DNA of 64,000 bases from Mya arenaria. Its lineage: Eukaryota; Mollusca; Bivalvia; Myida; Myidae. A model generated the notes under the pieces. It made no database searches and had not been told where the DNA came from. It saw only the letters and a program-made list of their open reading frames with translations. The stretch covers positions 65,669,080-65,733,079 of the forward strand of contig NC_069127.1 in assembly GCF_026914265.1 (NCBI RefSeq), read 5' to 3'. The position numbers and the translations under genes were made by a program. Below are positions 1,206 through 63,640 of the stretch, piece by piece. The first letter of the stretch is position 1; every line of letters starts with the position of its first letter.

Positions 1206-2705
1206 TTAATAATCAGATGGAAATGCATATTCATCATATTCTTCAGAACTTTGTAGACTCATGTTCGAAAAATAGTAGCTTCTGTTTAAATTTTGCTCTG
1301 CTCGTCTTAAGTTTGTTTCGTTTTTCATTATAACATAGTTCAAGATTTCAAACATGATATCATATATTATAAACCAAACAATTGGCGAAATTGAAAAAAA
1401 ATATATAAACCTGTACAGTGCATAACTTATAAAGAAAAGGCGACTGGTGTTTTCAATATAAACAGTAGCGTGGACGATTTTCCCAACAAGAGAAAAACAC
1501 GAAAATCCGAATGGTTTAATATTTCTGATCTCCCCTGTTGAAATATCATAGCTTTGCATGTGAACGCTATAAGTGCTTCTAAAACGAGGCAAAATCCACA
1601 ACCATAAGAATGCCATAACGGTTGAAGATAATATGAACATTATTGAGCAAAATTCAAAAAGACCGGATACGTAAAAAAGAAATATGGTTCCATGTAGTAT
1701 TACTGTTCCTAACAGCACGGTTCGAAACTGTGAAATGTATGGCTTTCCTAGAATCATAAAATGTATAGGCCAAAGTTTGTATTGCAAAAAAGTAAGTAAA
1801 ATCAAATGCGTCAAGGAAAAGAGGTTGCTGAATCCAAGTGACCGAAAACCAATGTGAAAAAGGGAAAGGCTCTCCGCGTCAGTTTGTTGGCACTTATTAT
1901 TTTCCATTTGAGTCCAGTTTGATTTTGACATATCAGTTTGTTGGCACTTATTATTTTCCATTTGAGTCCAGTTTGATTTTGACATATCAGCCATAAACGT
2001 GTGTTGATCACCATCACAAAAGTTGCCTCCCCATTTTCTAATATAATCCTGAATATTTTCTATTTCGCGCATTCTGTCGTTGTAACTCATGTGTCGAAGA
2101 ACAGTGTGTTCAGAAGGAGTAGAAAATTCGTGCGTATATTTTACAAGGTTGTTGTTGTAAAATATAGACAGCACTATATCACTAAACATAGCCGTGAGCT
2201 TTCGGTTAATGTGTGCATTGTGTAGTGCCTGTCCTTGGCTTTTCCACAGCCTAATCCAAAAGATTGCTTCCATATACTGCTTAAATAAAAGCAGAAAGCA
2301 ATGATAGCTCCACAAACATTGCTGGACCTTTTCACAAGGATGACGGCTACTTTCTGTGTCGTTGTAGCCGAAGGCCACTGTGTTTGTTTCTGTTTCGCTA
2401 CGTTTCATACCTTCAATTAAATCGTTCATAAGCCTATTTTCTGGAAAGGCTTTCATGATCACATCCATGTCCTTTCGTCCTTTCCCAATTTTGCATTTTC
2501 GCCTACAAACTGGACAGTGCAATATGTCACACTCATGGTTTCCTAAACAGTTTTTATTGATTATTGTTTCGATGCACTTTTTGCAAAATGTATGCTGACA
2601 TGGTAGTATTCTTGGGCTATCAAACCGTTCCATACAAATTTGACACGTTATAAGGTTTTCATTGATCGTGATGTTGATCTCTTCGTTGGGATACGCCGTC
2701 GCCAT
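1206..2705 (-). CDS. RING-type, multi-membrane-segment protein A (probable E3 ubiquitin ligase), copy 1
   Basis: Intact 499-residue protein. It has an N-terminal C3HC4 RING with C21, C24, C36, H38, C41, C44, C64 and C67, then a linker with FPENRLM (87-93). There is no B-box. An AHINRKLTA motif lies at 164-172. After a duplicated 18-residue stretch (240-275) comes SLGFSNLFSL and about five hydrophobic segments, broken by a soluble loop containing GKIVHATVYIENTSRLFF. The tail is acidic and Ser/Tyr-rich. The start MATAYPNEE is shared with paralogues, and a splice acceptor sits just upstream. RING domains of this type recruit E2 enzymes, so the protein is probably a membrane-anchored ubiquitin ligase with its RING in the cytosol; that is inference. 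TRIM13 and TRIM59 also couple a RING to a membrane anchor, but I do not claim orthology. Confidence 0.88.
   Translation of the reverse strand: MATAYPNEEINITINENLITCQICMERFDSPRILPCQHTFCKKCIETIINKNCLGNHECDILHCPVCRRKCKIGKGRKDMDVIMKAFPENRLMNDLIEGMKRSETETNTVAFGYNDTESSRHPCEKVQQCLWSYHCFLLLFKQYMEAIFWIRLWKSQGQALHNAHINRKLTAMFSDIVLSIFYNNNLVKYTHEFSTPSEHTVLRHMSYNDRMREIENIQDYIRKWGGNFCDGDQHTFMADMSKSNWTQMENNKCQQTDMSKSNWTQMENNKCQQTDAESLSLFHIGFRSLGFSNLFSLTHLILLTFLQYKLWPIHFMILGKPYISQFRTVLLGTVILHGTIFLFYVSGLFEFCSIMFILSSTVMAFLWLWILPRFRSTYSVHMQSYDISTGEIRNIKPFGFSCFSLVGKIVHATVYIENTSRLFFISYALYRFIYFFSISPIVWFIIYDIMFEILNYVIMKNETNLRRAEQNLNRSYYFSNMSLQSSEEYDEYAFPSDY
1879..1986 (-). repeat. Exact 54-bp tandem duplication inside gene A
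   Basis: Two perfect 54-bp units, in frame, each encode DMSKSNWTQMENNKCQQT. Paralogues B and C have a single equivalent (EMSKSxWIHPTAxK). The duplication is therefore private to A and recent, just before the first membrane segment. Confidence 0.95.
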
Positions 2706-2713
2706 ATTAGTTG

Positions 2714-2859
2714 CTAAAATTTAGATTTACGTTGTATCAGTAAATTTTTCAACAATCAATGCATATATGAGGACACACACAAGGTAATAGAAATACTTAA
2801 GTTGATATTTAGCAACTTTTGATTGAGACAAAAATATAGAAATTGTAGATTTTACTTAC
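2714..2859 (-). other. Predicted 5' UTR intron of gene A
   Basis: On the minus strand a donor AGA|GTAAGTAAAA (GT at 2,859-2,858) and an acceptor AATTTTAG|CAACTAAT-ATG (AG at 2,715-2,714) bound a 146-bp intron. Remnant D has the same donor and an equivalent acceptor, 155 bp apart. The acceptor lies 8 bases before the start codon. Confidence 0.65.
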
Positions 2860-2939
2860 TCTTTTCGAATAGTACAGTTTTTACAGATTGAAATATACGA
2901 CGTGCACTGTATACTCATTTAAGAATGACATGGCCTCGT

Positions 2940-3160
2940 ATTTAGGACATTCAATTTATTAATATATCACTTATCGACCATTGAGAGGCAAACTGACTTA
3001 TAAGCAATTAAACCGATTATGTATGTAGGACGTTTGAGGTATAAATTGGCATGGTGCATGCATTCTTCAGATAAACACCGACTATCGTTGATTTTAACCT
3101 GACATACCTGATAAGGAGATACCACAATCGGTCGTTCATATCTAGCGTCGGACTGTTTTC
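2940..3160 (-). promoter_or_regulatory. Conserved upstream block of gene A
   Basis: This block aligns with the region upstream of remnant D (61,040-61,300). Shared pieces include TTATCGACCATT (TTATTCGACCTT in D), CAGATAAACACCGA and GATACCACAATCGG followed by CATATCTAG. B and C also carry TTATTCGACCATTGCATTAA 250 bp upstream of their predicted donors. It is a likely proximal promoter, but no TATA box is convincing. Confidence 0.45.
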
Positions 3161-5009
3161 ATATCTGGACTTTTTCATGTAAACTGAGTTTGCGTGGATT
3201 GATATTCTTTATCGGACAATTAAATATTGACTTATATCGTATGCTTAACAACAAAATAATCATTCGTTGTTGTATGAAATTAAGAAACAGATATCTAATT
3301 TTCAGTTGAGGACTCAACATTAACTTTCTAAGAAATGGTCGTTTTTAGGACGAACTATCAAGATAATGTGCATCACGTACTACACAAAGCATAATTCAAT
3401 GTCGTAGTTAAAAATCCCTCTTATACAAAAGCATCGTGTACATACGGTTACCGAAAGTCTTCGTTTACGTATGTTTTCTTTGACGTCCTCTTTTTCAGTT
3501 TTATTGAATTTGAAGTGTTTAGTGTAACTTGGGGTTCTAAAACCTTGTGTTGATAACAATAAATTCTTCGTAACTGCAGAAATACTTTGCTGTAAGTTCT
3601 AATAGAATCACTAGTATTATACTTGTTCAGTAAAATGTCAAGGAAGGAACCACGTCTGTTTCTGGTATTTTACGACATGAATAAATATAGCTGGTCTAAC
3701 TATTTTTACTAAACATATGTGAACAAATTGAGGATTAGATGATAAAAAGACTTATAAAAAAGACCGTTTTACGTTCTAAAATTCGTTATCGAATTAAAGA
3801 CTTCATATGAAACATTTCTGCAAAGTTTAATTAAACACTGTACATATTTTAGATATAAATGAAACTTTTAAAAACTGTAACACAAAGACACATCTGAAAA
3901 CGTTCGTTACTATTCTGTAACGAAAAGGTGAACATTGCTAAATGGGGTTAAATATATCATGCAGATATCATGCAGACTAAAGAAGAATTTCATGGACACC
4001 TGAGATACAATATCTAGAGCACGCAATGAAAAACATTGTGGTGTTGTGTTGTAACAGTCGTGTATGTGATTACAGTAATTACTAACAATACTTCAATCTA
4101 TGAAACAGAACTAAATTTCATTTCAATATTATATTTTAATTGAATTGGCGACCGGATAAGTGTATTCCTCACACAAAAAGCAGTTTAAAAAGATTAAACT
4201 TCAGTGCCACTTGGGATTATATATTACAGAAATAATTAAAATTAAAATATAACTATGATAGAGTCTCATGTCTGATAAATATTCGAGGTCCACACGATGC
4301 TTCAGTAAAAAAACAAATGTTTTGAAAACACCAAAGAAATTCCTTCACTGACTCACTATATACTAATGAGGTAGGTAAGTAGGTAAGTGGGCGGAGCATA
4401 GCGCTTTACAAATAGTACCTGATAAGTTGCCGGAATAGACTGGATACATAACTAGAGAAATACAGAACATTTTCAAGTGAAAATTTATATTATGAAATTA
4501 AGCTCCTGTTTCTAAAATAAAGGATTTGAAAAATCATCAATGTTGTCTGGACCAAAGAACAATTTTATCCTACATCCAGATCTTGTTAAGTGAAAACTCG
4601 CAGATTGGTACTCGATAATTATTTGTACAGTGCACGTTTTTGTGTGTATGCCAAATTAAGTTATGATAACTCATTAGGAGTGTTAAAATAAGATACCAAA
4701 AGCTGGAACCCTTCAGCAAGTGTTTATATTTGGTCGAATTTTGAAAAAAAAAATGAAAAACATAATTTGCATATAAGCGTAAACAGCTTTACGTCATTCG
4801 CTTATTGGCATTATCACGTGATGTTTTCAATGTATGGTTGACATGTCAAGGTGTGTAAGCTTTACATAATCGCACTCGGGCCTTGCCGATTTCGCGAGTG
4901 CTTAAATCAGATTAATAGTCATTTTAGGTTTCTGGAGAATAGTGCACAGAATGTAATCCTGGTAACAGCTACCCTGGTTCTTTTGCGAGCAGCAGTGTAT
5001 AGCACTGTC
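3161..5009. other. Intergenic, no gene seen
   Basis: AT-rich sequence with no conserved coding. Near 4,365-4,400 there is a short GTAGGTAA repeat followed by GGGCGGAGCATAGCG. That motif resembles one at 22,245 and may be a dispersed repeat scrap. The copy at 37,855-39,705 is the same apart from two A-run length differences. Confidence 0.5.
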
Positions 5010-5131
5010 ACACGGGACCCCCATTTAACGTCCCTCCCAGAAGTCGATTGGTATGTTTTACTTGTTCTGCGGGGAATCGAACTTACGACCACTGAATTGA
5101 CAGCAATTTCATTACCATTAGACCATGAATC
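5010..5131 (-). repeat. tRNA-derived SINE-like element, minus strand
   Basis: On the minus strand a box A-like TGGTCTAATGGTAATG is followed about 40 bases later by an exact box B-like AGTTCGATTCC. The spacing is that of a tRNA gene, but the acceptor arms do not pair well. I therefore call a tRNA-derived SINE head and not a working tRNA. Confidence 0.5.
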
Positions 5132-5154
5132 CGTCACTAACATGACAGAATATT

Positions 5155-5246
5155 TAAGTCCTCGTGGTCTAGTGGTTAAGGTAGCCATCATCTTGCGTGA
5201 AATAAAATCTAGACTTTACCGGCGTTGGTTCGCACCCAACTAAAAG
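5155..5246 (+). repeat. tRNA-derived SINE-like element, plus strand
   Basis: TCCTCGTGGTCTAGTGGTTA is a typical tRNA 5' half with box A. GGTTCGCACCC about 50 bases on is a degraded box B. It faces the minus-strand element at 5,010-5,131, giving a head-to-head pair. The 130-codon open frame across both is a by-product. Confidence 0.5.
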
Positions 5247-5329
5247 TATTTGTAATACTCTAAATGTATTGTTTTGCATTTCCCATATCATAGAGTAAAA
5301 TAACGATAAAAAGGATTTCAATTTGAATC

Positions 5330-5609
5330 GAGTGGCTATGGAAAATTGCAAATCTCAACATTTCATATTTAAAAAGAGTGGCTATTAGAAACGGGCAATT
5401 CTCAACATTTCACATTTTTAATTGAGTTGCTATTGAAATGAGCAAAGCTCAACATTTCATATTAAAATCGAGTGGCTATGGAAAAGGGCAAAGCTCAACA
5501 TTTCACATTTGTAATTGAGTTGCTATTGAAAGGAGCAAAGCTCAACATTTCAAATTTGAATGGAGTGGCTATGGAAAAGGGCAAATGTCATGTGTTCAAC
5601 AAGTGCACA
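5330..5609. repeat. 47-bp tandem repeat, six units
   Basis: Units start at 5,330, 5,376, 5,424, 5,470, 5,517 and 5,563. Each begins GAGT(G/T)GCTAT and carries CTCAACATTTCA. The last four alternate between a GAGTGGCTATGG and a GAGTTGCTATTG form, so a ~94-bp dimer is the likely unit of expansion. The array abuts fragment F, where its membrane part would be expected. Confidence 0.85.
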
Positions 5610-6075
5610 CGATCAGAGTCGGTAAAGAAAAAAGCTTGCTTAATCAACGCTATGGACAACAACGACTTGTCTTGATCAGTTTGTTGGCCTGTATCTCTTC
5701 AATATATAATATATATATATATATATATCCAAGCTCATGTTTCCATGTTTTTCAAAGAGTTTGTATAAGTTTCATCAAACAAGTGGATTCCTGGTTGACA
5801 TATTTCTTTTTCAACAGCTTCAAGTCTATCTACAGTTGTAGCTTCGCTTAACAAATTGTCGTTGTTTTTGTAATAAATGAGTTTCGTAAAATGTATTGAA
5901 TCTTGCCGTAAATTTTCGATTCATGTGAGCGTCAGTTATTGCTCGACCTGTGAAAATGTCCTGCCCGTGCAATTGTATCATCTTATATTTGAACAGTCCA
6001 CAAAAAAGTAAAAAAAACAATCCACAAAAAGGATGTTACGTTCTTGCGTTGCCAACTTTGAAGCATGTTATCGGC
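5588..6075 (-). pseudogene. Fragment F1 of the RING-membrane family (middle region only)
   Basis: Minus-strand translation gives DAHMNRKFTARF, the family's A-H-x-N-R-K-x-T-A motif, and the DNA aligns with the middle of gene E (about 62,880-63,250). RING and membrane segments are both missing. The upstream edge (TTGCCAACTTTGAAGC) is shared with fragment F3 at 56,352-56,370, so both descend from a copy that had already lost its RING. The other edge runs into the AT run and the 47-bp array. It is a non-functional remnant. Confidence 0.75.
5701..5728. repeat. AT microsatellite
   Basis: 28 bases of AT repeat with one phase break. The corresponding run in copy 2 (40,397-40,423) is 27 bases without the break. 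It is one of only four differences between the copies. Confidence 0.9.
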
Positions 6076-6370
6076 TGACGGCGAGGCTAGACACAATAGC
6101 ATTTCATTTGGACATAGCATGATATATCACAACAAATGCCAGTTGTGTCGTTTCATAGATTTCGGCATGATACAAATACCTAAAACCATAACAAGTAAAT
6201 TGTGTTTAAGTACGACGTAGAGTACAATTTATGGCGGGAGGGTTCTACGGAATACACGAGACGAAGGTATTTTGTTAATTTATGTTTAATACATCTGCTA
6301 CACACAAATCAGACACACTAATACTATCCCCAGACAAACAGATTGTCGTCTGTGGTTTAATGGAGTTCTA

Positions 6371-7092: not shown

Positions 7093-7589
7093 GTATGAAT
7101 TCATAAGCCAAATTCAATGATCGCTTGTTTATTTCTTAGGTGCAAAAACAATGACCGCCAGTGTGAAGTCATGTTAGTAGAAGCTTTAAGTGATCTTAAT
7201 ATATTACGGTGAGACAGTATAATTCCCTTTACGTTCTATACAGTGTTGCCATTCTATAATTCCAGCAGTAGAGGAGATTCTGATTCATCAATTTTATAAT
7301 AACTAATAATGGAAGCATAAGTACAAATATCTGCATACACGTATGTGAACTGAAAACATGCATGACAGAGTATAGAGCTTTCAATGTCTTTTAAAAGCCA
7401 CTAAAATATCATTCGAATCAAACTTTCACATGATTTCAATATTGTCAGCGCAATAGGTCGATTATGATACATATGTTACAGTTCATCGTATCTACGTTAG
7501 TCTATTGTCACAAGAAAGAGTGGTCTTAGTGTTGAAATCTGCACTGTCATTACGCCACTATACAAAAACAAAAACATTCCGTTTCGTTA

Positions 7590-8365
7590 CAGTGTCATAT
7601 GCCATGGACCAAAGCATGGGCAATATTGAAAACAAATATGTAAACTTGAACAATGCGTAAGCAGTAAACAAGAAGCGACAAACGTTTCCAAAATAAAGAG
7701 TTGCTTATACATGTTTTACAACGAATGAGACAGAATCTTTTGGCAGGATTACATATGGTCTTTATTATGAAATCAATACACAGCAACAAACACAGCTTCT
7801 CGTTCGCCGAGAAATAATCCATAAAACTAAGTACGCTGCGAAAATAAAGGAATGAGTATATAATACAGATCACCATTTCGGAAACCACAAACTTGAGTGA
7901 ATAAAAGACTCTGGATATTATTGATTTCAAAAGAATACAATTCAACTGGTTGAAATATCTGATAAGATTAAAATGCAAAAAAGCTAAACGTCTAGAGTTA
8001 AAAAGATGCAATGAATCATGGACATTGAAAAAAAGGTTGCTAATCCTAGAAAGGGACACACTATGGACAACAAGGACATATCCTGATCAGTTTGTTGGCC
8101 ACTGAACGGGTATTAACGCCAATTAAATATCGCATGTCTTTAAAATTGTTTTCATATGGATCATTATCTTTTTTGATCGATTGATTTCTGATTCAACAGT
8201 TGCGAAACCAGTAGAAATCGACGTAGCTTCGGTTAACAAATCGTCGTTTTTTACATTACTGGAGTCTCGTTACACCGCTCTGCAAACTGCTGTAAACGTG
8301 CGGCAAGTAATCTTGTTAACAGCCTATCAATCTACATATTCAGTTGCATCAAATACTCATTAAAT
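7590..8365 (-). pseudogene. Fragment G1 of the RING-membrane family (middle and membrane part)
   Basis: The minus strand encodes CRFLFTAYALFKFTYLFSIL, close to gene E's RFLFILYALFKMTYVFEMLP. Nearer its start the DNA aligns with the family's middle region and the SLxxISNLFS motif. No RING is present and the reading frame changes several times. A 154-codon open frame (7,595-8,059) survives by chance. It lies directly after gene B, as G3 lies after gene C, so gene plus fragment moved as one module. Confidence 0.75.
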
Positions 8366-8369
8366 ACTC

Positions 8370-9791
8370 TCAAGAAAGTAAGATGATTCTTAAATGTTCA
8401 TTAGCTCTCGTGGGTCGTTGAATGTCACTATCATACGTAGATAGATAGATACCATTTCTCTGATTATCTAAATGCAATACCATTAAGCATGCAAGTTTTG
8501 CTGCAATGTCATAAAATATGAACAAGACTATCGGCAACATTGTAGAAGAAGATATACCCTTTACAAATGCATAACAGATAAACAAAAGGCGGCATATGTT
8601 CTCCACAAAGAGCGTGCTGTGCACAATTTTTCCAATATTTGAGAACTCGTGTGTTTCAACTGCATGAATATTTGTTATGAGTCCTGATGAAATATCAAAG
8701 TACTGCAAATGCATACTGTTCTTGTCGGTGTTTCGATGAAAATGCCACAATATTCAGTAAGCTAAGAAATTTGCTGACACTATTGACAATACAATTGACC
8801 ACCACGTTAGAGCATCGCACATATAAATAAGAAATATACTGCCAAGTACTTTAACCATTCCTATGTATGCCATATGATTCCAGGGTAAATTAAAGTTTTT
8901 TAATATACAAAAATGCATAGGCCAACGGACATTTTCAAAATTGATATTCATCAGCAGAACCATTAAAGAAAACAAGTTACTAAATCCAACAGAGTGATAC
9001 GCCATGAGCAAAATGCCTTGGCGTTCCGCGTACTTTTGTTGGCACTTATCTGCTGTAGGATGAATCCAGTCAGATTTGGACATTTCTGTTATAAACAGTT
9101 GATGATTATCACTATGACATAAATGGATTCCACTTTTTTTTATATTTTCCCAAATGCAATTTATTTCTCGCAGTCTGCCATTGAAAATCATTCGATGTTG
9201 GATACTGGCTGCAACACTAGTCGAAGACATACGTTCAAAAGCTTCATCGCCGATGTTCTCAAATGTTAACAACAAAATTTCGCTGAACATAGCTGTAAGT
9301 TTTCGATTGATATGCACATAATGGATTGCTTCTTCGCTGCCTTTGAGTACTGTCAACCTATTAAGTGCATCCAAATACTTCTTAAACAGAAACAAGAAGC
9401 AATGATGAATCCACAGACAATGCTGGACTGTCATGAACATATCAATGTGGCGTCCTTCTTCAAAATCATTAAACGCCACTTTCTTTGTATTTGTCCCCTC
9501 AAGCAATTCATTCATTAGTTTGTTTTCAGGAAATGCTTTCATTATGGCATTTACATTCCTTTCCCCATTCTCAATTTTGAATTCTCGCAGACAAACTGGA
9601 CAGTTAAACATGTAACTCTCATGTTTTACAAAGCAGTTGCTCCTGACTAATATTACAATGCATTTCCTACAAAACGTATGATGGCATGGTAGGATACTTG
9701 GGTTATCAAACATCTCCATACATATTTGACAAGTCAACAAATTTTCATCGACAGCGATGATTTTTTCTACTTTTGGAAATGCTGTTGCCAT
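8370..9791 (-). pseudogene. RING-membrane family member B, copy 1, with one in-frame stop
   Basis: Close paralogue of gene C over its whole length. It has an intact C3HC4 RING (C21, C24, C36, H38, C41, C44, C64, C67), the HINRKLTA motif near 160 and the SxGFSNLFSL motif near 268. At codon 346 the TTA (Leu) of gene C is TGA, in AY-stop-ILW. After it the frame stays open for a further 127 codons with clear similarity to C (HLQYFD, GKIVHSTLFVENICRLLF). As it stands it makes a 345-residue protein lacking the last two membrane segments and tail. This single change suggests recent loss; a truncated working form or readthrough cannot be excluded. A splice acceptor precedes the ATG. Confidence 0.85.
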
Positions 9792-9800
9792 TTTTCCCAG

Positions 9801-12043: not shown

Positions 12044-12143
12044 NNNNNNNNNNNNNNNNNNNNNNNNNNNNNNNNNNNNNNNNNNNNNNNNNNNNNNNNN
12101 NNNNNNNNNNNNNNNNNNNNNNNNNNNNNNNNNNNNNNNNNNN
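12044..12143. other. Assembly gap, exactly 100 N
   Basis: One hundred N bases, the customary placeholder for a gap of unknown size. Sequence after it does not match what follows copy 2 at 46,740. Confidence 0.99.
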
Positions 12144-15884: not shown

Positions 15885-16255
<371 letters not shown>

Positions 16256-35899: not shown

Positions 35900-37399
35900 T
35901 TAATAATCAGATGGAAATGCATATTCATCATATTCTTCAGAACTTTGTAGACTCATGTTCGAAAAATAGTAGCTTCTGTTTAAATTTTGCTCTGCTCGTC
36001 TTAAGTTTGTTTCGTTTTTCATTATAACATAGTTCAAGATTTCAAACATGATATCATATATTATAAACCAAACAATTGGCGAAATTGAAAAAAAATATAT
36101 AAACCTGTACAGTGCATAACTTATAAAGAAAAGGCGACTGGTGTTTTCAATATAAACAGTAGCGTGGACGATTTTCCCAACAAGAGAAAAACACGAAAAT
36201 CCGAATGGTTTAATATTTCTGATCTCCCCTGTTGAAATATCATAGCTTTGCATGTGAACGCTATAAGTGCTTCTAAAACGAGGCAAAATCCACAACCATA
36301 AGAATGCCATAACGGTTGAAGATAATATGAACATTATTGAGCAAAATTCAAAAAGACCGGATACGTAAAAAAGAAATATGGTTCCATGTAGTATTACTGT
36401 TCCTAACAGCACGGTTCGAAACTGTGAAATGTATGGCTTTCCTAGAATCATAAAATGTATAGGCCAAAGTTTGTATTGCAAAAAAGTAAGTAAAATCAAA
36501 TGCGTCAAGGAAAAGAGGTTGCTGAATCCAAGTGACCGAAAACCAATGTGAAAAAGGGAAAGGCTCTCCGCGTCAGTTTGTTGGCACTTATTATTTTCCA
36601 TTTGAGTCCAGTTTGATTTTGACATATCAGTTTGTTGGCACTTATTATTTTCCATTTGAGTCCAGTTTGATTTTGACATATCAGCCATAAACGTGTGTTG
36701 ATCACCATCACAAAAGTTGCCTCCCCATTTTCTAATATAATCCTGAATATTTTCTATTTCGCGCATTCTGTCGTTGTAACTCATGTGTCGAAGAACAGTG
36801 TGTTCAGAAGGAGTAGAAAATTCGTGCGTATATTTTACAAGGTTGTTGTTGTAAAATATAGACAGCACTATATCACTAAACATAGCCGTGAGCTTTCGGT
36901 TAATGTGTGCATTGTGTAGTGCCTGTCCTTGGCTTTTCCACAGCCTAATCCAAAAGATTGCTTCCATATACTGCTTAAATAAAAGCAGAAAGCAATGATA
37001 GCTCCACAAACATTGCTGGACCTTTTCACAAGGATGACGGCTACTTTCTGTGTCGTTGTAGCCGAAGGCCACTGTGTTTGTTTCTGTTTCGCTACGTTTC
37101 ATACCTTCAATTAAATCGTTCATAAGCCTATTTTCTGGAAAGGCTTTCATGATCACATCCATGTCCTTTCGTCCTTTCCCAATTTTGCATTTTCGCCTAC
37201 AAACTGGACAGTGCAATATGTCACACTCATGGTTTCCTAAACAGTTTTTATTGATTATTGTTTCGATGCACTTTTTGCAAAATGTATGCTGACATGGTAG
37301 TATTCTTGGGCTATCAAACCGTTCCATACAAATTTGACACGTTATAAGGTTTTCATTGATCGTGATGTTGATCTCTTCGTTGGGATACGCCGTCGCCAT
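35900..37399 (-). CDS. RING-type, multi-membrane-segment protein A, copy 2
   Basis: The 499-residue product is identical to that of 1,206-2,705. It has the same C3HC4 RING (C21 to C67), AHINRKLTA at 164-172, the doubled 18-residue stretch and about five hydrophobic segments. It lies within one uninterrupted contig together with fragments F2 and G2 and gene B, so this is the copy to trust if the first one is an assembly redundancy. Its start codon, upstream acceptor and promoter block are also identical. Confidence 0.9.
   Translation of the reverse strand: MATAYPNEEINITINENLITCQICMERFDSPRILPCQHTFCKKCIETIINKNCLGNHECDILHCPVCRRKCKIGKGRKDMDVIMKAFPENRLMNDLIEGMKRSETETNTVAFGYNDTESSRHPCEKVQQCLWSYHCFLLLFKQYMEAIFWIRLWKSQGQALHNAHINRKLTAMFSDIVLSIFYNNNLVKYTHEFSTPSEHTVLRHMSYNDRMREIENIQDYIRKWGGNFCDGDQHTFMADMSKSNWTQMENNKCQQTDMSKSNWTQMENNKCQQTDAESLSLFHIGFRSLGFSNLFSLTHLILLTFLQYKLWPIHFMILGKPYISQFRTVLLGTVILHGTIFLFYVSGLFEFCSIMFILSSTVMAFLWLWILPRFRSTYSVHMQSYDISTGEIRNIKPFGFSCFSLVGKIVHATVYIENTSRLFFISYALYRFIYFFSISPIVWFIIYDIMFEILNYVIMKNETNLRRAEQNLNRSYYFSNMSLQSSEEYDEYAFPSDY
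36573..36680 (-). repeat. Exact 54-bp tandem duplication inside gene A, copy 2
   Basis: Identical to 1,879-1,986: two in-frame units encoding DMSKSNWTQMENNKCQQT. Confidence 0.95.
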
Positions 37400-37407
37400 A
37401 TTAGTTG

Positions 37408-43060: not shown

Positions 43061-43064
43061 ACTC

Positions 43065-44486
43065 TCAAGAAAGTAAGATGATTCTTAAATGTTCATTAGC
43101 TCTCGTGGGTCGTTGAATGTCACTATCATACGTAGATAGATAGATACCATTTCTCTGATTATCTAAATGCAATACCATTAAGCATGCAAGTTTTGCTGCA
43201 ATGTCATAAAATATGAACAAGACTATCGGCAACATTGTAGAAGAAGATATACCCTTTACAAATGCATAACAGATAAACAAAAGGCGGCATATGTTCTCCA
43301 CAAAGAGCGTGCTGTGCACAATTTTTCCAATATTTGAGAACTCGTGTGTTTCAACTGCATGAATATTTGTTATGAGTCCTGATGAAATATCAAAGTACTG
43401 CAAATGCATACTGTTCTTGTCGGTGTTTCGATGAAAATGCCACAATATTCAGTAAGCTAAGAAATTTGCTGACACTATTGACAATACAATTGACCACCAC
43501 GTTAGAGCATCGCACATATAAATAAGAAATATACTGCCAAGTACTTTAACCATTCCTATGTATGCCATATGATTCCAGGGTAAATTAAAGTTTTTTAATA
43601 TACAAAAATGCATAGGCCAACGGACATTTTCAAAATTGATATTCATCAGCAGAACCATTAAAGAAAACAAGTTACTAAATCCAACAGAGTGATACGCCAT
43701 GAGCAAAATGCCTTGGCGTTCCGCGTACTTTTGTTGGCACTTATCTGCTGTAGGATGAATCCAGTCAGATTTGGACATTTCTGTTATAAACAGTTGATGA
43801 TTATCACTATGACATAAATGGATTCCACTTTTTTTTATATTTTCCCAAATGCAATTTATTTCTCGCAGTCTGCCATTGAAAATCATTCGATGTTGGATAC
43901 TGGCTGCAACACTAGTCGAAGACATACGTTCAAAAGCTTCATCGCCGATGTTCTCAAATGTTAACAACAAAATTTCGCTGAACATAGCTGTAAGTTTTCG
44001 ATTGATATGCACATAATGGATTGCTTCTTCGCTGCCTTTGAGTACTGTCAACCTATTAAGTGCATCCAAATACTTCTTAAACAGAAACAAGAAGCAATGA
44101 TGAATCCACAGACAATGCTGGACTGTCATGAACATATCAATGTGGCGTCCTTCTTCAAAATCATTAAACGCCACTTTCTTTGTATTTGTCCCCTCAAGCA
44201 ATTCATTCATTAGTTTGTTTTCAGGAAATGCTTTCATTATGGCATTTACATTCCTTTCCCCATTCTCAATTTTGAATTCTCGCAGACAAACTGGACAGTT
44301 AAACATGTAACTCTCATGTTTTACAAAGCAGTTGCTCCTGACTAATATTACAATGCATTTCCTACAAAACGTATGATGGCATGGTAGGATACTTGGGTTA
44401 TCAAACATCTCCATACATATTTGACAAGTCAACAAATTTTCATCGACAGCGATGATTTTTTCTACTTTTGGAAATGCTGTTGCCAT
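43065..44486 (-). pseudogene. RING-membrane family member B, copy 2, with the same in-frame stop
   Basis: Identical in sequence to 8,370-9,791, including TGA at codon 346 where gene C has TTA. The RING (C21 to C67) and the first membrane segments are intact upstream of the stop. The last two membrane segments and tail remain readable in frame after it. Because both copies share the stop, it is not a lone base error in one contig. Confidence 0.85.
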
Positions 44487-44495
44487 TTTTCCCAG

Positions 44496-46890: not shown

Positions 46891-47562
46891 CGGCAGTTTT
46901 AACTTGCCGTTTCAATTCCAATTCTTTTTTTCATGAATGTATTCTATATCAAATAAACAATTTCTTCAGCTTTATTTCGGTGTATAAATTGTAAAAATAC
47001 CATTTTTTTAATTAAGTAATCACGATTTTTGTGAAGGTACACCTGTATTCTCTCAATACCGCTCCGCTGTAAATCATTAAGCGCGTGTTGATATCGATCA
47101 AATCATTGTTATCAGTGATCAAATCAGCCGACGACAGCATATTCAGACTGACTCATGTTTTATCGCTTGATTTCTTCTCCCTTTAATCTTACTACCAGAT
47201 AACAAAATACAATTCTTATAGCATTATTACATATATACCAATTACTAATCGAATGATTTTTTTAATCTGAGAAAAAAAAATCGTTTTAAAATTCTATGTT
47301 ACACCGATATATTTTATCAACACATTTAAAAAGCATATAGCATTTAGTGATCAAACACGTTATAGTCTTCTGTAGAGTTTTGATAATTGGCATAATGTTC
47401 TTTATTTACTGTTTAAAAATGTTTCATCTTGGCCTGACTTAATTATTATACTATTTGTAATTTAAAAGCATTTGAAACTTAATCATGAATGTATAATACA
47501 GTTCGAACAACTTTGAACTTAATGTATACTTTTGTATTTCTTGAACTGTGTCTGCTAATATA
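46891..47562. other. No gene seen
   Basis: AT-rich spacer between the interspersed repeat and fragment H. Confidence 0.4.
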
Positions 47563-47685
47563 CTATCAAACCGTTCCATGCAAACACGTTATAAGATTGT
47601 CATTAATCGTGATGTTTATGTTTGCGTTTCGTAACGCTGTCGCTATGTTCGATGCTGAAAATAGTGTTTTGTCTATAAACTTCGA
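47563..47685 (-). pseudogene. Fragment H: 5' end of an E-type RING gene, start codon lost
   Basis: The minus strand reads ATAGCGACAGCGTTACG where gene E has ATGGCGACTGCGTTACC. It then encodes NINITINDNLITC and stops matching inside the RING after a small deletion. The acceptor TTTTCAG|CATCGAAC upstream of the lost ATG is still present, as in gene E. Confidence 0.75.
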
Positions 47686-50495: not shown

Positions 50496-51129
50496 CAATT
50501 GTTGTTCAACAAAGTGATTGTTTTGTAAAAGGCTTTGTCAAAGTCACACTAAGACATAACTAAAATAAAAGAAACAGTACACTTCCGTCAATTACTAGTT
50601 ACGTCCAACCAGCTCTTTTGAGGTTAATAAGCCAAGTTAAACGATCGCTAGTTTATTTCTTATGTGCAAAAAAATGACCGCCAGTGTGAAGTCATGTAAG
50701 TAGAAGCTTTAAGTGATCTTCAAAATAATATAATATGGTGAGACAAATAATTTCCTTTACGTTCTGTACAGTGTTGTCATTTTATGATTCCAGCGTGAGA
50801 GGAGATTCTGATTCACCGATTTTATAACAACAAATAATGAAAGCATTAGTACAAATGTCTGCATACATGTATGTGAATTAAAAACATGCATGAGTATAGA
50901 GATTCCAATGTGTTTTTAAAACCATGGAAATATAATTCGAATAAAACGTTCACAGGATTTCAATATTGTCAGCGCAATAGGTCGATTATGATACATATGC
51001 TACAGTTAATCATATTTACACTTACCAATTGTCACATAAAAGAGTGGTCTTAGTGTTGAAATTTGCACATCCATAACGCTACTAAACACACACAAACACA
51101 AAAAAACATTCCTTTCCGATAGAAAGTCA

Positions 51130-51885
51130 TATGTCACGTACCAAAGCATGGGCAATATTGAAAACAAATATGTTAACTTGAACAATGCGTAAGCAGTAAA
51201 CAAAAAGCGAAAAACGTTCTGAACATCTGCTTATACAAGTTTTGCAACGAATGAGACAAAATCAAATCTAATGGCAGGATTACATATGGTCTTTATTGTG
51301 AAATAAAAACACAGCAACCAAACACAGCTTCTCGATTGCCCATGAATAATCCATAAAACTAAGTATGCTGCGAAAATAGAGGAATGAGTAAATAATATTG
51401 ATTATCATTTCGGTAAACCACAAACTCTTGAGTAAATAAAAGACTCCCAATTATTTTTATTTCAAAACAATACAATTACAAACTGGTTGACATATCCGAT
51501 TAGATTAAAATACAAATGCTAAAAGTCTAGAATTAAAAAGATGCAAACAATCAAGGACGTTGAAAGAAAAGGTTGCTAGAAAGGGACACAATATGGACAA
51601 CATGGACATATCCTGTTTGTATCAGTTTGTATAAACCCATGTTGAATATCTCATATCTTAAAAAAATCATATGAATTATGATATTTTATGGTTGATTTAT
51701 TTATGATTTAACAGTTTCTTATACATTGCCACACCAGTAGAAATCGACATAACTTCGGTTAACAAATCGTCGTTTTTTTTTAAATTACTGGAGTCTCGCT
51801 ACACTGTTCTGCAAACTGCTGCAAACGTGCGGCAAGTTATGCTTGTTTACGGCCGATAAAACTACATGTACTCAGTTACATCAAA
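51130..51885 (-). pseudogene. Fragment G3 of the RING-membrane family
   Basis: The minus strand encodes FTAYALFKLTYLFSILPMLW. Upstream, diverged DNA aligns with G1 throughout (AACAAATCGTCGTTTTT, CACTGTTCTGCAAACTGCTG). No RING and a broken frame. It lies just downstream of gene C, as G1 does of B. Confidence 0.72.
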
Positions 51886-51900: not shown

Positions 51901-53307
51901 TCATGAAAGATAGATGATTCTTGAATGCTCGTTAGCTTGCGTGGGTCCTTGAATGTCACTTTCAAGATTGGTCAAATGATCATCAAATTTCAGAAGCAAT
52001 AAACATGCAAGTTTTGCTACCACATCATATACTATGAACCAGACAGTCGGCAGCATTGTAGAAGAAATTGTACTCGCTAAAAATGCATAAATGATAAACA
52101 AAAGGCGGCATATGTTTTCCACAAAGAACGTACTGTGCACAATTTTTCCAATAATTGAGAACTCGTGTGATTCAATTGCAGGAATATGTATTATAAGTCC
52201 CGATTCAAAATCAAAGTACTGCAAATGCATGCTGTTCCTGTCTGTGTTTCGAGGAAAATCCCACAATATTAAGTAAGCAAAGAAATTTGCTGACAATATT
52301 GACAATACAATTGACCTTCCCGTTAGAGCATCGCATATATAAATAAGAAATATACTGCCAAGTACTTTAACCATTCCTATGTATGCCATTTGAAACCAGG
52401 GTAAATTGAAGTTTCTTAATAAACCAAAATGCATGGGCCAACGGGATTTTTCAAAATGGACATTCATAATCAGAACCATTAAAGAAAACAAGTTACTAAA
52501 TCCAAGAGAGCGATAGGCAATGAGCAAGATGCCTTGGGTCTCCGAGTACCTCTGTTGGCGCTTTTCTGCGGTAGGATGAATCCAGGCAGATTTGGACATT
52601 TCTGTTATAAACATTTGATGACTATCACTATGTCGCATCCGGATTCCACTATTTTTAATACTTTCCCAAATACAGTTTATTTCTCGCAGTCTGTCATTGA
52701 AAGTCATTCTATGTTGGATACTGGCTGCAACACTAGTCGAAGACATACGTTCAAAAGCTTCATCGCCGATGTTCTCAAATGTTAACAACAAAATTTCGCT
52801 GAACATAGCTGTAAGTTTTCGATTGATATGCACATTATTGATTGCTTCATCGCTGCCTTTGAGAACTGTCAACCTATTAAGTGCATCCAAATACTTCTTA
52901 AACAGAACCAAGAAGCAATGATGACTCCACAGACAACGCTGGACTGTCATAGACATATCAATGTGGCGTTCTTGTTCAAAATCATTGAAAGCCACTTTCT
53001 TTGTATCTATCCCTTCAAGCAATTCATTCATTAGTTTGTTTTCAGGAATTGCTTTCATGATGGCATTTACATTCTTTTTCCAATTCTCAATTTTGAGTTG
53101 TCGCCGACAAACTGGACAGTTAAACGTGTCACTCTCATGTGTTTCTAAGCAGCTGCCCCTGACTAATATTACAATACATTTCCTACAAAACGTATGATGG
53201 CATGGTAGGATTCTTGGGTTGTCAAACATCTCCTTACATATTTGACAAGTCAACAAATTTTCATCGACAGCGATGATCTTTTCTACTTTTGGAAATGCTG
53301 TCGCCAT
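51901..53307 (-). CDS. RING-type, multi-membrane-segment protein C (probable E3 ubiquitin ligase)
   Basis: Intact, 468 residues. C3HC4 RING at 21-67 (C21, C24, C36, H38, C41, C44, C64, C67), linker IPENKLMNELLEG (87-99), HINRKLTA at 160-167, EMSKSAW near 236, SLGFSNLFSL at 267-276. Hydrophobic segments lie at about 259-282, 307-325, 331-349, 398-414 and 418-440, with the loop motif GKIVHSTFFVENICRLLF at 387-404. It is the intact sister of gene B and gives the reference for B's stop. The ATG is preceded by TATACTTTCAG|CACTGACAA, a 3' splice site, so a 5' UTR exon is expected near 53,440. The likely role is membrane-anchored ubiquitin ligation, by RING family knowledge; the substrate is unknown. 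Confidence 0.9.
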   Translation of the reverse strand: MATAFPKVEKIIAVDENLLTCQICKEMFDNPRILPCHHTFCRKCIVILVRGSCLETHESDTFNCPVCRRQLKIENWKKNVNAIMKAIPENKLMNELLEGIDTKKVAFNDFEQERHIDMSMTVQRCLWSHHCFLVLFKKYLDALNRLTVLKGSDEAINNVHINRKLTAMFSEILLLTFENIGDEAFERMSSTSVAASIQHRMTFNDRLREINCIWESIKNSGIRMRHSDSHQMFITEMSKSAWIHPTAEKRQQRYSETQGILLIAYRSLGFSNLFSLMVLIMNVHFEKSRWPMHFGLLRNFNLPWFQMAYIGMVKVLGSIFLIYICDALTGRSIVLSILSANFFAYLILWDFPRNTDRNSMHLQYFDFESGLIIHIPAIESHEFSIIGKIVHSTFFVENICRLLFIIYAFLASTISSTMLPTVWFIVYDVVAKLACLLLLKFDDHLTNLESDIQGPTQANEHSRIIYLS

Positions 53308-53906: not shown

Positions 53907-55479
53907 TGACCGAAAATACACTACATGTTTTTCACTTTCAATGAGTGATCATTATTCAATCCAAATCGGACATTACATCACCTATATCGGCCCAAAAAGC
54001 TATTTTGTGGTATTACATGTACTTTTAACATTTGTGCATTTATATCCAAATGATATCCAAATAGATTCACAAGGAATAGTTAACCGTCGCATATAGAGTA
54101 GGCTTGATACCTTAGCCATTGGGTTTGTCACGGCAATCTTTGTTGGATGAACAATGATACAAGAACTTCAGCCAGTTTTAATGCGACAATCTTAGTGTAC
54201 GCATTTTTTCAAGTCAGGTCACGTTCCGAACGTTCGCCTAGAGTGGATAAACACTTACCCCGTTTTCTAGTTTAGCGCAAGTGTGAAAACGTTAAGGATA
54301 AAACAAGAACAGGATAATATTGTGATCTTTTTTATGAAAAAGTGATAATAAAATAGAATGCATACCTTTAGTAATCCAATTCTTTCTTATACACACTACC
54401 GCTTCGTCGTTCGTTTATGGAGCTTAAGTTATAAATATGAAATGTGATAATCAATATTTAAACACGGTTGAAAAAGATCCTACTCATGTGATCTCCTCTA
54501 CAGCATTTTGTATGAAACTGTATCTTACTTAATACTATCGCTAAACTTAAACCAGTTTGGTAAGTTAAATAGAGCTGCTATTTACCTATTTAGCACGATT
54601 ATTTTACAGTGACTGTCGAAAAATGTATACATCTGTTAATTCCTAATCTTTTAGAATCTAACCATTTATCAATATACCGTTGAAGTGCCGCTGTGGAAAT
54701 CGTGTATGTGCTGTTGTGTCCGTGTGTATGTTATTGTGTGTTGATTATTGTACCCCCTTTAGAAGATCGATTAGCAGTTCCTTACAATTCAATGAACCGT
54801 TAGTCCACTGACCCTTGTAAGGTAGGATATCGTTGCTATACGTAAATTAACTGAAATATACAAGGTTTGTATTTTTGGTCAAACGTTTACAATTTTCATT
54901 TTTCACTTTCAAATGATGCCACAATGGTACGGGTTTATCATGCCATCATATATATTGTGTGTTGAATATCTTTACTATTAGGTTTTGGAATACCGCGTTT
55001 TTCAGTGCATGTAATTGTATGAGTAGCAATACAATGACTTTAGCATTTTAATGTCATATGTAATTAAAATGGCCCTGGTAAACGAATATAAAAACGGATA
55101 TGAAAACCTCATCATTTTCCTTGAAGTTGTATTTTGTGTGTTTAGATAATAGTACTCCCTAATCCTGTTCACATTTGCCAGTCTGAGTCCCGTTTCAATA
55201 AGACAGTAGTAAACTTGAGACTGCTAACACCCGTAAAAATACGGGTATATGTCCTAACGATATTTGTAACGCCAGTTTACGCCAAAACGAGATTACACCT
55301 TCTGCAGCTTTTCGATCTTTATTGAAACATGGTCCAGGAGGTTGTCTCTGTGTTTGATATGAATCCAAAGTTCATTCCCCTACTCAACTGGTTGGAATAC
55401 CTTTTTACTTGAACAATAGCACACGGTTGCGTGACAATACTGCTATAGTAATATAGATTGTGTTCTCGTATATGCTACT
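53907..55479. other. Upstream region of gene C, no gene seen
   Basis: Aligns with the region upstream of gene B to about 55,105. From about 55,265 it aligns instead with the 3' flank of gene E (61,740-61,920), the normal flank of fragment F3. Confidence 0.5.
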
Positions 55480-56370
55480 TATGCTAGATTACAAAGCATC
55501 GAATAATTATTTATGTCACAATGTCATGTCCTATGTATTACAGTATCGACAACATTGCAAACAAATATGTCATCTTAAACAGTGCGTACGGAATAAACAA
55601 AAAGTGAATGACATTTTCAACGTAGACAGTGGCGTGTACAAGTTTGGAAAGGAATGAAAACCTATTTAATCTAATCGCAGAACAATATATGATCCGTCTT
55701 GTCAACGAACAAAACTCATACTCGGTTTTAGAGGCGAAAAACATAGTTCCAAGTATGCTATGAATATGAAGCAAAAGTGAATAGCACAACTCATCATTTA
55801 TTTAAACCACAAATTTGAGTCAAAAATAGACCCCGGTCTTTAGAAGTTTAAAGAAGACTTTCTAGCATTTAGTGACAACTCTGGTAAAACTAAAAGGCAC
55901 ACGGGCCAAGAGTTAAACAAGTGCAAACGTCCAGAGACGTTAAAGAAAGGGGTTAATAATTCCAACTGAGCGACTCTCTATGGACAACAAGGACATGTCT
56001 GGATAAGGTTGTTGGCCCTTATCTCTTGAATGCATACCAATCCAAGCTCATGATTCCATGTCTTCCAAAAATGTTATATATGTTTCATCAAACAAGTGGA
56101 TTCCTTTTTGAAATATTTCCTTTTCAACAGTTTCTTGTCTAGCTACAGTCGTGTCTTCACTTAACAAATCGTCTTTTTTTGTAATGAATGAGTTCCGTAA
56201 ATTGGTACCGAATCTTGCAGTAAATATCGATTGATGTGAGCGCCCGGTATTGTTTGTTTACGACCTGTGAAATTGCTCAGCCTATGCGATCGATTGTACC
56301 ATAAAATCGTTGAGAAGTAAATAATTCCACAAATATGGTTCACGTTTTTGCATTGCCAACTTTAAAGCTT
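55480..56370 (-). pseudogene. Fragment F3 of the RING-membrane family (no RING)
   Basis: E-type membrane part: FSFLSKLVHATVYVENVIHF and ALFKMTYLF (55,538-55,789, minus), with gene E's FSFLSKLVHATVYVENVIRF as the match. Further upstream the middle region includes AHINRYL. The frame is broken repeatedly. The upstream edge (TTGCCAACTTTAAAGC) equals that of F1, and no RING follows it. Confidence 0.75.
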
Positions 56371-60380: not shown

Positions 60381-60816
60381 CTATTTAACTCTATATGTAC
60401 TTTCGCTAAACTGGATTTCTCCAAAGTTGGCAATGGGTACTTGAACATTGTTTTCAGCTTCCATATCAACTGTTAGTGCTGCATTCTTTAACAGGTCTGC
60501 GTCCTTTTCTATCCCTTCTAGAAATTCATTCATTAATATATTTTCTGGAAACGCTTTCATGATAGCATCCATGTTCTTTCGTCCTCGTCCTTTCCCAATT
60601 ATGCACTGTCGCCGACAAACTGGACACTGGAATGAGTCACTCTCATGTTGTCCTAAGCATTTTTTTCTGGATTATTGTAACTATACAATTCTTGCAAAAA
60701 GTATGCTGACATGACAAAATCCTTGGGATGACAAACCGTTCCATACAAATTTGACACGTTATAGGATGTTCATTGATCGTGATGTTTATGTACTCGTTTG
60801 GAAAAGCCGTCGCCAT
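60381..60816 (-). pseudogene. Remnant D: RING-only member of the RING-membrane family
   Basis: ATG at 60,816-60,814 starts MATAFPNEYINITINE, then a RING (TCQICMERF, SCQHTFCKNC). A run of seven A at 60,659-60,665 (six would keep frame) shifts the frame at QKK. The RING continues in another frame (CPVCRRQC, then MDAIMKAFPENILMNEFLEG). After VQVP the sequence departs from gene E and ends at a stop at 60,381, so middle and membrane parts are gone. The A-type upstream intron and promoter block are preserved. Confidence 0.8.
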
Positions 60817-61039: not shown

Positions 61040-61300
61040 AGATTTACATTCCCTCGAACTTGGGACATTTAATTGATTCATTCATCACTTATTCGACCTT
61101 ATAATGACTTACTTAATGACTGACTTAACTGCAAAACTGACTTAAAGGCCTTCTTACCGATTATATTTGAGTGACGTTTGAATGGGCATGGTACATGTGT
61201 ACTGCAGATAAACACCGATTGTCGTTTAGTTTAAATCTAACATACCATATATGCACTATATGCAGATACCACAATCGGCCGCTCATATCTAGGGTCGGTA
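61040..61300 (-). promoter_or_regulatory. Conserved upstream block of remnant D
   Basis: Matches gene A's upstream block: TTATTCGACC (61,089), CAGATAAACACCGATTGTCG and GATACCACAATCGGCCGCTC. Confidence 0.45.
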
Positions 61301-62320
61301 TTTATGTTTACTGAGTGAGTATGGACTGATTTCCTTTATCTGACAGTTAAAAATATATTTAAGAGTTATTCACTATATAATGTTTGTATATTTTAATAAT
61401 CCTTTTTGCCGGGTGCCAGACAACAAAGTCACATCTATTAGAGTGTATTGAGGTGTGGAATTTGGAACAGCCGTTTTGCGAATTTGGAATTAAACAAAAC
61501 ATAATTGACCTTCCTATATAGTGTGGGCTAAATACCTTTGCCATTGGGATTTGCACTGCATAAATTATCGTACTAGCAATGATACATGATTTTAAGACTG
61601 TTTTAAATCTTCAAACATAGTGAACGCATATAAAAATGCAAATTCTTCAAGTCTGTTTATGTTACGACCCTCCGATGCGTTTAGATTATCCATATTTCTA
61701 TTTATATTTTCTACGATATGTTTATTGGAACGTAGTTCACGCTAAAATCGGGGTTACGCCTGGAAATTTTCCATCTTCAGCCTTACGATCTGGATAGAAA
61801 CGGGACCGGGGCGATGTTTCTGTGTGTGTGGTATGAATCCAATAATCACTGCACTGATTATACTGGTTGAAACACTTTTATGCATGAACACCAACACATG
61901 TTTTGGGAACACTCTCTTTTTTAATAATAGAGATTGTGTCGCGTGCGGTTTTTTCTGGTCTTATCCACGGAAATACCTTGTAAATGTCTAAGCAATTTTA
62001 TGATAAAATTTAAGGTTTTATATTTATAAAGCGACACCTTATCCTTATTAACATAAAATTATAAGGATATATTTGTTTTGGTAACATATCTATTGTTATC
62101 ATATATATTATTTTTGGAGATATGGACAATAAAATACTATATTCAGTTTAGACTTTTAACAAAATTCAAATTATAACAGTAATGTGATAAGAGATAACAT
62201 AACCAACAAGATTGGGAAAACGTTTGTCGCCATGGCAGTAGCTTAAGCATGATGCAGATCGTACAAATAATTATTGCTTTGTTTATTGATCGACGAAAAA
62301 AACAACCGCATATTTTTATG
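61301..62320. other. 3' flank of gene E and upstream region of D, no gene seen
   Basis: 61,517-61,660 aligns with blocks upstream of B and C. 61,740-61,920 aligns with the flank of F3. The rest is AT-rich with nothing recognisable. Confidence 0.45.
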
Positions 62321-63640
62321 CTAAATATTATTTCTGACGATCATTTTCGACACGAAAATTTCGAAGGGGAAGCAACACATAATTATTTCTGTCACAATGT
62401 CATGTGCTATGTACATCAGTATTGGTAACATTTCAAATACATATGTCATCTTAAACAATGCGTAAAGAATGAACAAAAAGCGAATTACGTTTTCAACATA
62501 AACAGTGGCGTGTACAAGTTTGGAAAGGAACGAGAACCCATAAAATCTAACAGCAATACCATACACTTTCTCTTTTGTGAAAACATCAAAAAACTGCAAA
62601 CGGACGCAACTCAAACTCGGTTTTCGACGGAAAACCCACAATATTAAGTAGGCTATGAATATGAAGGTAACAGTGAACATTACAGACCACCATTTCGGTA
62701 AACCACAAATTTGAGTAAAAAACAGACTACCAATTACTTTTAGAATTCCAAAGAATACGATTTGAGATTGTTTGACAACTCCGACAAAACTAAAAGGTAC
62801 AGGCCAAATTTTAAGCGTTAAAAAGGTGTGAACAATCAGAGACGTTAAAGAAAAAAGATTGCTGAATCCAAGTGAGCCATACACTATGGACAACAAGGAC
62901 ATGTCCACCTTCATTGTATGCATATCAATCCAAGCTGATTCGTTCATATCTTTCAAAAAGTTGAAATCATCCAAAACGAATTGTCCTTGTTGATTAATTT
63001 CATTTTCTACAGTTTCTATTTCAGATAGTGCAACACCAGCACTAGTCGACGTGGTGTGGCTTGACAAATCGTCGCTGTTTGTTATAACTGCTTTTCGTAA
63101 AACTGTACTGGATACTGCCGTAAATTTTCGATTGACATGAGCGTCAAGTAATGCTTGTTCACGACCTATCCAAATACTAAGGAAATCCAAGTGTATCATA
63201 TACTCCTTGAACACTCTCAGGAAATATAAATAATTCCACAAATACGGTATAACTTTCTTGGGTACTCGAATATTGTTTTCATCTTCTACTTCACTAGTAA
63301 ACGCCGCCTTCTTTGGAAGTGCTTTGTCCTTTTCTATCCCATCTAGTAATTCATTCATGAGTCTATTTTCTGGAAAAGCTTTCATGATTGCATCCATGTC
63401 CTTTCGTCCTCGCCCTTTCCCAATTCTGCACTGTCGCCGACAAGCTGGACAGTGAAATGTGTTGCTCTCATGTTGTCCAAGACAATTTTTCTGGATTATT
63501 GTAACAATACATTTCTTGCAGAACGTATGCTGACATGGCAAAATCCTTGGGCTATCGAATCGTTCCGTACAAATTTGACACGTTATAAGATTGTAATTTA
63601 TCGTGATGTTTATGTTTTCGTTTGGTAACGCAGTCGCCAT
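62321..63640 (-). CDS. RING-type, multi-membrane-segment protein E (probable E3 ubiquitin ligase)
   Basis: Intact. I start it at MATALPNENINITI (63,640), 439 residues, because this start is shared by all paralogues. The frame is open for another 22 codons upstream, but a splice acceptor (TTTTTTCAG|CATCGAAC) lies there. C3HC4 RING at 21-67; the linker contains a GRGRKDMDAIMKAFPENRLM stretch; AHVNRKFTA motif; SLGFSNLFSL before about five hydrophobic segments; loop LSKLVHATVYVENVIRFLF. It is most similar to fragments F, G and H. A likely donor for the 5' UTR intron is GAGAG|GTAAAT (GT at 63,984) or TGTG|GTAAAA (63,760); I cannot decide. The role is as for A and C, by inference. Confidence 0.88.
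   Translation of the reverse strand: MATALPNENINITINYNLITCQICTERFDSPRILPCQHTFCKKCIVTIIQKNCLGQHESNTFHCPACRRQCRIGKGRGRKDMDAIMKAFPENRLMNELLDGIEKDKALPKKAAFTSEVEDENNIRVPKKVIPYLWNYLYFLRVFKEYMIHLDFLSIWIGREQALLDAHVNRKFTAVSSTVLRKAVITNSDDLSSHTTSTSAGVALSEIETVENEINQQGQFVLDDFNFLKDMNESAWIDMHTMKVDMSLLSIVYGSLGFSNLFSLTSLIVHTFLTLKIWPVPFSFVGVVKQSQIVFFGILKVIGSLFFTQICGLPKWWSVMFTVTFIFIAYLILWVFRRKPSLSCVRLQFFDVFTKEKVYGIAVRFYGFSFLSKLVHATVYVENVIRFLFILYALFKMTYVFEMLPILMYIAHDIVTEIIMCCFPFEIFVSKMIVRNNI

Follow-up and report, generated by a model that had tools for sequence, protein, structure and literature searches.

We analyzed a stretch of 64,000 nucleotides from the bivalve Mya arenaria, here called the window (contig NC_069127.1, which we label C6; C6:65669080-65733079 of a 1.216-Gb genome in 18 contigs), and found in it a cluster of related genes that encode a RING domain followed by hydrophobic segments. 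Judging from their sequence, these genes probably encode RING-type E3 ubiquitin ligases anchored in a membrane and form a small family that evolves by local birth and death. The observations behind this proposal are a shared protein plan, intact RING ligands together with the arginine that follows them, coding constraint, local duplication, and decay. On its minus strand, the window carries three distinct intact single-exon genes (A, C, and E), one stopped gene (B), and six decayed pieces (Table 1). An earlier note on this DNA had counted three intact genes, one stopped gene, and at least six decayed pieces, and the open frames and alignments agree with that count, giving six distinct pieces.

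A local family with one protein plan

The cluster proteins have a common plan, in which a C3HC4 RING at the N terminus is followed by a middle part and then by about five hydrophobic segments. Homology among A, C, and E runs nearly from end to end and is far beyond chance (C against A, E value 6.7e-112; C against E, E value 1.3e-87). When gene B was read through its 473 codons, we found one in-frame stop and no frameshift, and the protein was 78% identical to that of gene C over the full length. We also found a fourth intact gene, F, outside the window at a distance of about 430 kb (C6 near 65.235 Mb, plus strand, 445 amino acids). Gene A has a perfect 54-base in-frame tandem duplication (18 residues; window 1879-1990) that is absent from C, E, and F.

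The RING types PF13445 and PF00097 passed the Pfam cut-off in all five proteins scanned (A, the open part of B, C, E, and F), and no other Pfam family did so. The eight zinc ligands, C-x2-C...C-x-H-x2-C-x2-C...C-x2-C, are complete in each of the four intact genes and span residues 21 to 67 in gene C. A, C, E, and F all have the linchpin arginine directly behind their final zinc cysteine, and stopped gene B has a leucine there. The RING of gene C was closest, among solved sequences, to those of TRIM2, TRIM3, and TRIM5. A B-box was not among the matches at an E value of ≤10 in A, C, E, and the open part of B, nor at ≤1 in F, and a SAM domain was not among the matches at ≤10 in the same four proteins, where HMMER filters discard most matches above about 0.1, so that the negatives at ≤10 reach less far. 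In NCBIfam, the RING region matched rad18 far below the cut-off of that family, and isolated other matches had E values of 0.023 or worse. Thus, the earlier description of a C3HC4 RING with no B-box was borne out.

Beyond the RING, the motifs N-R-K, K-x-x-H, and E-N-x-x-R are kept in A, C, E, and F. The string SLGFSNLFSL, which had been picked out from the letters, is exact in A, C, and E and reads SLGFSNVFSI in F. Two other motifs singled out at that time, H-x-N-R-K-x-T-A and G-K-I-V-H, are present but looser in the wider family: E has SKLVH, and F has FINRKLAS and GKITH. We counted hydrophobic segments by hydropathy at thresholds of 1.5 and 1.2 and found five in C at both thresholds, five to six in E, three to five in A, and three to four in F. 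These counts vary with the threshold and are approximate, because in 3 of 12 proteins (our rows L040, L029, and L043) the looser one also flags residues within the RING.

Structure models of these proteins were too weak to confirm that the hydrophobic segments span a membrane. The mean predicted local distance difference test score (pLDDT) was 39.6 for the whole of gene C, whose helices, the only ones that bear on a TRIM-like coiled coil, are of low confidence, and 53.2 for the membrane part of E. In the latter model, two short strands lie between the third and fourth segments, and E-N-x-x-R falls inside the fourth. The G-K-I-V-H...E-N motif had been described as a loop; the motif is there, but in this low-confidence model it occupies the first part of a predicted helix, and the loop, with its two short predicted strands, precedes it.

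The membrane part has no named relative in the libraries searched

We compared the membrane part with known families in several ways. When six membrane parts were scanned singly against Pfam, six scattered matches appeared, none better than an E value of 0.046 and none common to two members. A membrane-part profile found no PDB sequence at an E value of ≤10, and a Foldseek search of the better model returned six matches, none meaningful (best E value, 4.0). In these searches, the membrane part reached the cut-off for no sequence family of Pfam, NCBIfam, or the PDB; the earlier note had called the conserved motifs unnamed. In titles and the openings of abstracts, we found no description of the family, and we make no claim that it is unpublished.

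The family is concentrated on one stretch of C6

A genome search with nearly all of gene C, in which 91 of 146 candidates were scored, gave at least 90 matches at an E value of ≤0.001, mostly to the RING only. A second search used the membrane part of E alone (E value, ≤10; 23 of 23 candidates scored), a single-sequence search that may miss distant relatives. It listed 21 matches, of which 18 lie on C6 within a 0.63-Mb stretch (65.10-65.73 Mb), 1 on contig C14 (40.12 Mb), and 2 on contig C16; the last two (E value, 6.4) we take for noise. The C14 copy has a frameshift within its RING, where the set of zinc ligands is not found. The other places on C6 outside the window and outside a further copy of the A/B block described below are broken (near 65.075, 65.10, 65.166, 65.365, and 65.598 Mb).

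Two pattern-seeded scans of viral contigs, one with RING peptides and one with the membrane motif, matched 22 stretches each time, and similar scans of prokaryote genomes gave 52 and 25 matches; none was confirmed as a relative, by short peptide patterns that would miss distant ones. A viral origin was rejected, as neither of the pattern-seeded viral-contig scans yielded a confirmed relative.

About 3 kb from the C14 member, there is a minisatellite-like repeat (L017, about 1250-1816) that is open in frames on both strands.

Intact copies are constrained and other copies decay

We measured the ratio of nonsynonymous to synonymous substitution rates (dN/dS) between the four intact genes, taken in all six pairs, and obtained 0.28-0.39 over the whole gene, values that are rough because the synonymous divergence (dS) between intact genes, 1.2-1.8, is saturated. 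The comparison of A, C, and E that the earlier note had proposed gave 0.30-0.40 for the three pairs in a second alignment. By region, the ratio was lowest in the first 75 aligned codons (0.05-0.27); the middle part gave 0.27-0.55 and the membrane part 0.26-0.48. As far as such comparisons go, these values speak for maintained proteins under ordinary birth and death, and the pairwise ratios show no positive selection.

Genes B and C are informative about how copies arise and fail. Their similarity extends well beyond the gene on both sides, and therefore copying took place at the DNA level. They differ at 11.0% of positions in the coding part versus 13.5% and 15.1% in the flanks, with gap columns of 1.1% versus 5.0-7.1%. 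Because the coding part differs less than the flanks, B appears to have been constrained until recently; the dN/dS between B and C is 0.59. Gene E is the best match for four of the six decayed pieces (7582-8388, 51084-51831, 55427-56338, and 60435-60816). Local duplication and decay are thus clear, as the earlier note had proposed when it spoke of tandem birth and death.

One block of the cluster is represented more than once

Genes A and B appear a second time in the window. Positions 1-12043 and 34695-46739 show no substitution and four one-base indels in 12046 columns, all four in A or T runs or an AT repeat, and the first of these stretches ends at a 100-N assembly gap. Because the two stretches are identical save for these indels, the second A and B are not independent members. 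The sequence left of the window extends the match: from C6:65646466 onward it corresponds to the window sequence that starts at 12144, and the 22534 aligned columns hold 5-6 mismatches. Since the match continues beyond the window, one 34.6-kb block both closes the contig to the left of the gap and begins the contig on its right.

We found a third copy of this block at C6:65285421-65320044 (L022, L021, L009, and L010). Its identity to the window is 99.90%; over 34626 columns, we counted 3 mismatches and 17 gap openings. The 50 kb of sequence read around it has no N runs. Its gene A differs by one residue and holds the 18-residue duplication without gaps; its gene B is identical, stop included. 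The right flank differs, and the break (window 46740) lies inside a dispersed repeat.

In our view, an unmerged contig overlap together with one real recent duplication fits these data best. That the second A and B in the window are instead true recent duplicates, rather than one locus assembled twice, is possible but the less probable account. It draws on the third copy, which with its different right flank and freedom from N runs suggests that at least one recent duplication may be real, and on a left flank that the block left of the gap has in common with the third copy for at least 2.4 kb more. However, the absence of substitutions between the two stretches, together with the meeting of both contig ends at the 100-N gap, is the pattern of an unmerged overlap, a pattern qualified by the 5-6 mismatches that the block left of the gap carries over the preceding 22.5 kb. 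The earlier copy count holds for the distinct members, but a single block represented twice accounts for some of the apparent copies.

Table 1. Positions in the window of the cluster genes, their second representations, the assembly gap, and the decayed pieces
Feature	Position	Strand	Remarks
Gene A, intact, 499 amino acids	1209..2705	-	RING and membrane part; open frame 1206-2720
Gene B, single in-frame stop after residue 345	8373..9791	-	stopped open frame 8754-9827
Gene C, intact, 468 amino acids	51904..53307	-	open frame 51901-53310
Gene E, intact, 439 amino acids	62324..63640	-	open frame 62321-63706
Membrane part of gene C, about residues 250-445	51973..52560	-	no named relative in the searches made
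Membrane part of gene E	62324..62950	-	sole query of one genome-wide search
Second representation of gene A, identical protein	35903..37399	-	open frame 35900-37414
Second representation of gene B, same stop	43068..44486	-	sequence comparison
100-N assembly gap, ends the duplicated block 1-12043	12044..12143		sequence
Decayed piece, E residues 137-179	5892..6014	-	matched only E; again at 40587-40709
Decayed piece, E-like membrane part, several stops	7582..8388	-	best match E; again at 42277-43083
Decayed piece, first 30 residues only, 85 bases, broken frame	47562..47646	-	weakest, E value about 1e-4; A and E match about equally
Decayed piece, E-like membrane part	51084..51831	-	best match E
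Decayed piece, E-like, residues 132-424	55427..56338	-	best match E
Decayed RING-end copy of E, frame broken within RING	60435..60816	-	best match E

Proposed role of the family

A membrane-anchored E3 ligase is the simplest reading of these proteins, because an N-terminal RING with intact catalytic features is joined to several hydrophobic segments. We infer ligase activity, membrane topology, organelle, substrate choice, and physiological role as follows. The RING would face the cytosol and recruit a ubiquitin-charged E2, and the middle part with its N-R-K motif may pair subunits or position the RING. The approximately five C-terminal segments would anchor the protein in an internal membrane and would pick out substrates that are themselves membrane-bound; the polar face that carries E-N-x-x-R in the fourth segment may take part in this choice. 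The family grows by local duplication of DNA and loses copies through stops, frameshifts, and truncation.

Several points weigh against this proposal. Genes A and F have only three hydrophobic segments at the stricter threshold. Because both structure models are poor, the proposed topology and the task given to the middle part are conjecture. The dN/dS values are rough at saturated dS, as noted above. The 405-amino-acid open frame of the C14 copy had no Pfam match at an E value of ≤1, RING included. Finally, the RING could serve only as a scaffold.

We asked how far an immune version of the ligase proposal would go, in which the enzymes target membrane-bound immune adaptors or pathogen membrane proteins and the turnover of the cluster reflects conflict with pathogens. 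We hold this version to be doubtful. Local birth and death with many decayed copies would suit it, and so would two reports: the human multimembrane E3 RNF26 is described as meeting STING through its membrane segments and modulating its signaling (PMC7332293), which makes it a model of how such segments of a ligase may reach an immune adaptor, and TRIM genes, whose RINGs are the closest solved sequences, are described as having diversified in fish by duplication and positive selection (PMC2657112). However, pairwise dN/dS is below 1 everywhere, in whole genes and in each of the three regions, and turnover by itself is no sign of immunity. The earlier suggestion of a candidate undescribed system, with a turnover typical of immune or conflict genes, thus goes further than the data show.

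A bolder version is unlikely: a lineage-specific class of ligases with an N-terminal RING and five membrane segments, with its own membrane domain absent from Pfam, that would expand and decay in a cluster, would parallel the TRIM expansions of vertebrates in an invertebrate and at the membrane, and would act on membrane immune adaptors.

It is very improbable that most or all copies, the open ones included, are remnants of a lost function that decay and encode nothing useful. Decayed copies do outnumber intact ones, gene B has its stop in each of its three representations, and the C14 copy is frameshifted within the RING. Yet four different genes keep their open frame over the full length, and their dN/dS of about 0.3-0.4 (with dS saturated) would be unexpected after long neutral decay.

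If the cluster proteins are active membrane-anchored ligases, an animal lineage would have its own membrane-bound E3 set with an unnamed membrane domain. The cluster is also young enough for birth and death to be watched directly, in that a single stop ended B, the RING-end copy of E is broken, and one block exists in near-identical copies. Active ligases here would further suggest that single-exon RING-plus-membrane genes, which occur in several groups in this genome, are an overlooked share of the ubiquitin machinery in such animals.

Surroundings of the cluster in the window

Among 10 neighboring open frames that were scanned, nothing passed the cut-off except one B-box piece (PF00643, E value 1.7e-8) at window 31104-32035 on the minus strand. 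It is followed by sequence that is coiled-coil-like by eye, in shifted frames. This looks like a TRIM-like gene that is either broken or has introns; the pieces that we read contain no RING. A long GA-rich simple repeat lies at window 15885-16252, and, separate from it, a 60-base unit occurs in two copies at 30118-30235.

Comparison with other RING genes of the genome and with known systems

The plan of a RING with hydrophobic segments is not unique to the cluster, because the genome has other single-exon genes with an N-terminal RING followed by such segments. They form a cluster on contig C10 (55.61-55.63 Mb; L026 and L040-L042, four read of six places listed) and occur on C7 (L028), C17 (L027), and C2 (L029 and L043). 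These genes have the arrangement in common with the cluster proteins, but no relation of their membrane parts to that of the cluster is demonstrated. For the C10 genes, the local profile score is suggestive (equaled by 0 of 100 and by 2 of 100 shuffles, with an HH probability of 2.4%), and the global score gives no signal (11 of 25), so that kinship is not demonstrated. The C2 and C7/C17 genes gave no membrane-part signal in local mode (4 of 25 and 8 of 25 shuffles as good, respectively). Kinship with the C10 group looked good in L026, but the arginine of its E-N-x-x-R-like motif is missing from the three paralogues read.

In a tree built from 14 RINGs, the four intact genes A, C, E, and F group with the long-branch row L031, and the other RING-plus-hydrophobic genes group with the long-branch row L030. 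The split has support of 95/99, and 7 of the 11 inner branches are open. The tree shows no single origin of the plan.

The least credible alternative, that the membrane part is a shortened and diverged XK-related (XKR; PF09815) lipid scramblase domain fused to a RING, starts from a vague likeness in the EN dipeptide of a membrane helix and in segment spacing, seen by eye, and from a best local profile alignment in the expected register (family 39-187 on XKR 57-185), but we rejected it after the Pfam, genome, and profile searches, since PF09815 was not among the matches listed at an E value of ≤10 for four window proteins or six membrane parts, the 17 genome XKR matches listed were on C13 (9) and C2 (8) with none on C6 or C14 among them, the first profile comparison gave a probability of 0.1%, and the later score was equaled by 4 of 25 shuffles and then by 24 of 100 and 11 of 100.

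Two of the XKR loci on C13 (C13:68591560-68592495 and C13:51783085-51784005; L033 and L034) have XKR-family domains in single long open frames of 859 and 878 amino acids, whereas other matches to this family in the genome are fragmented.

Among known ligases, BFAR has an N-terminal RING, a SAM domain between the RING and the membrane part, and C-terminal membrane segments. The cluster proteins resemble it in having an N-terminal RING, predicted C-terminal membrane segments, and a similar length, but they differ from it in the SAM domain, for which they gave no match at an E value of ≤10. BFAR is named among the ligases of the endoplasmic reticulum in PMC7332293. The same article describes RNF26 as having several membrane segments and a RING in its cytoplasmic C-terminal part. 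The cluster proteins, with a RING and several predicted membrane segments, are similar in this to RNF26 and other membrane ligases of the endoplasmic reticulum, but their RING is N terminal; we liken them by description and claim no kinship. Compared with TRIM proteins, the cluster proteins give no B-box match and carry a hydrophobic part where the C-terminal domains usual for that family would stand, but TRIM2, TRIM3, and TRIM5 supply the solved RINGs to which that of gene C is closest.

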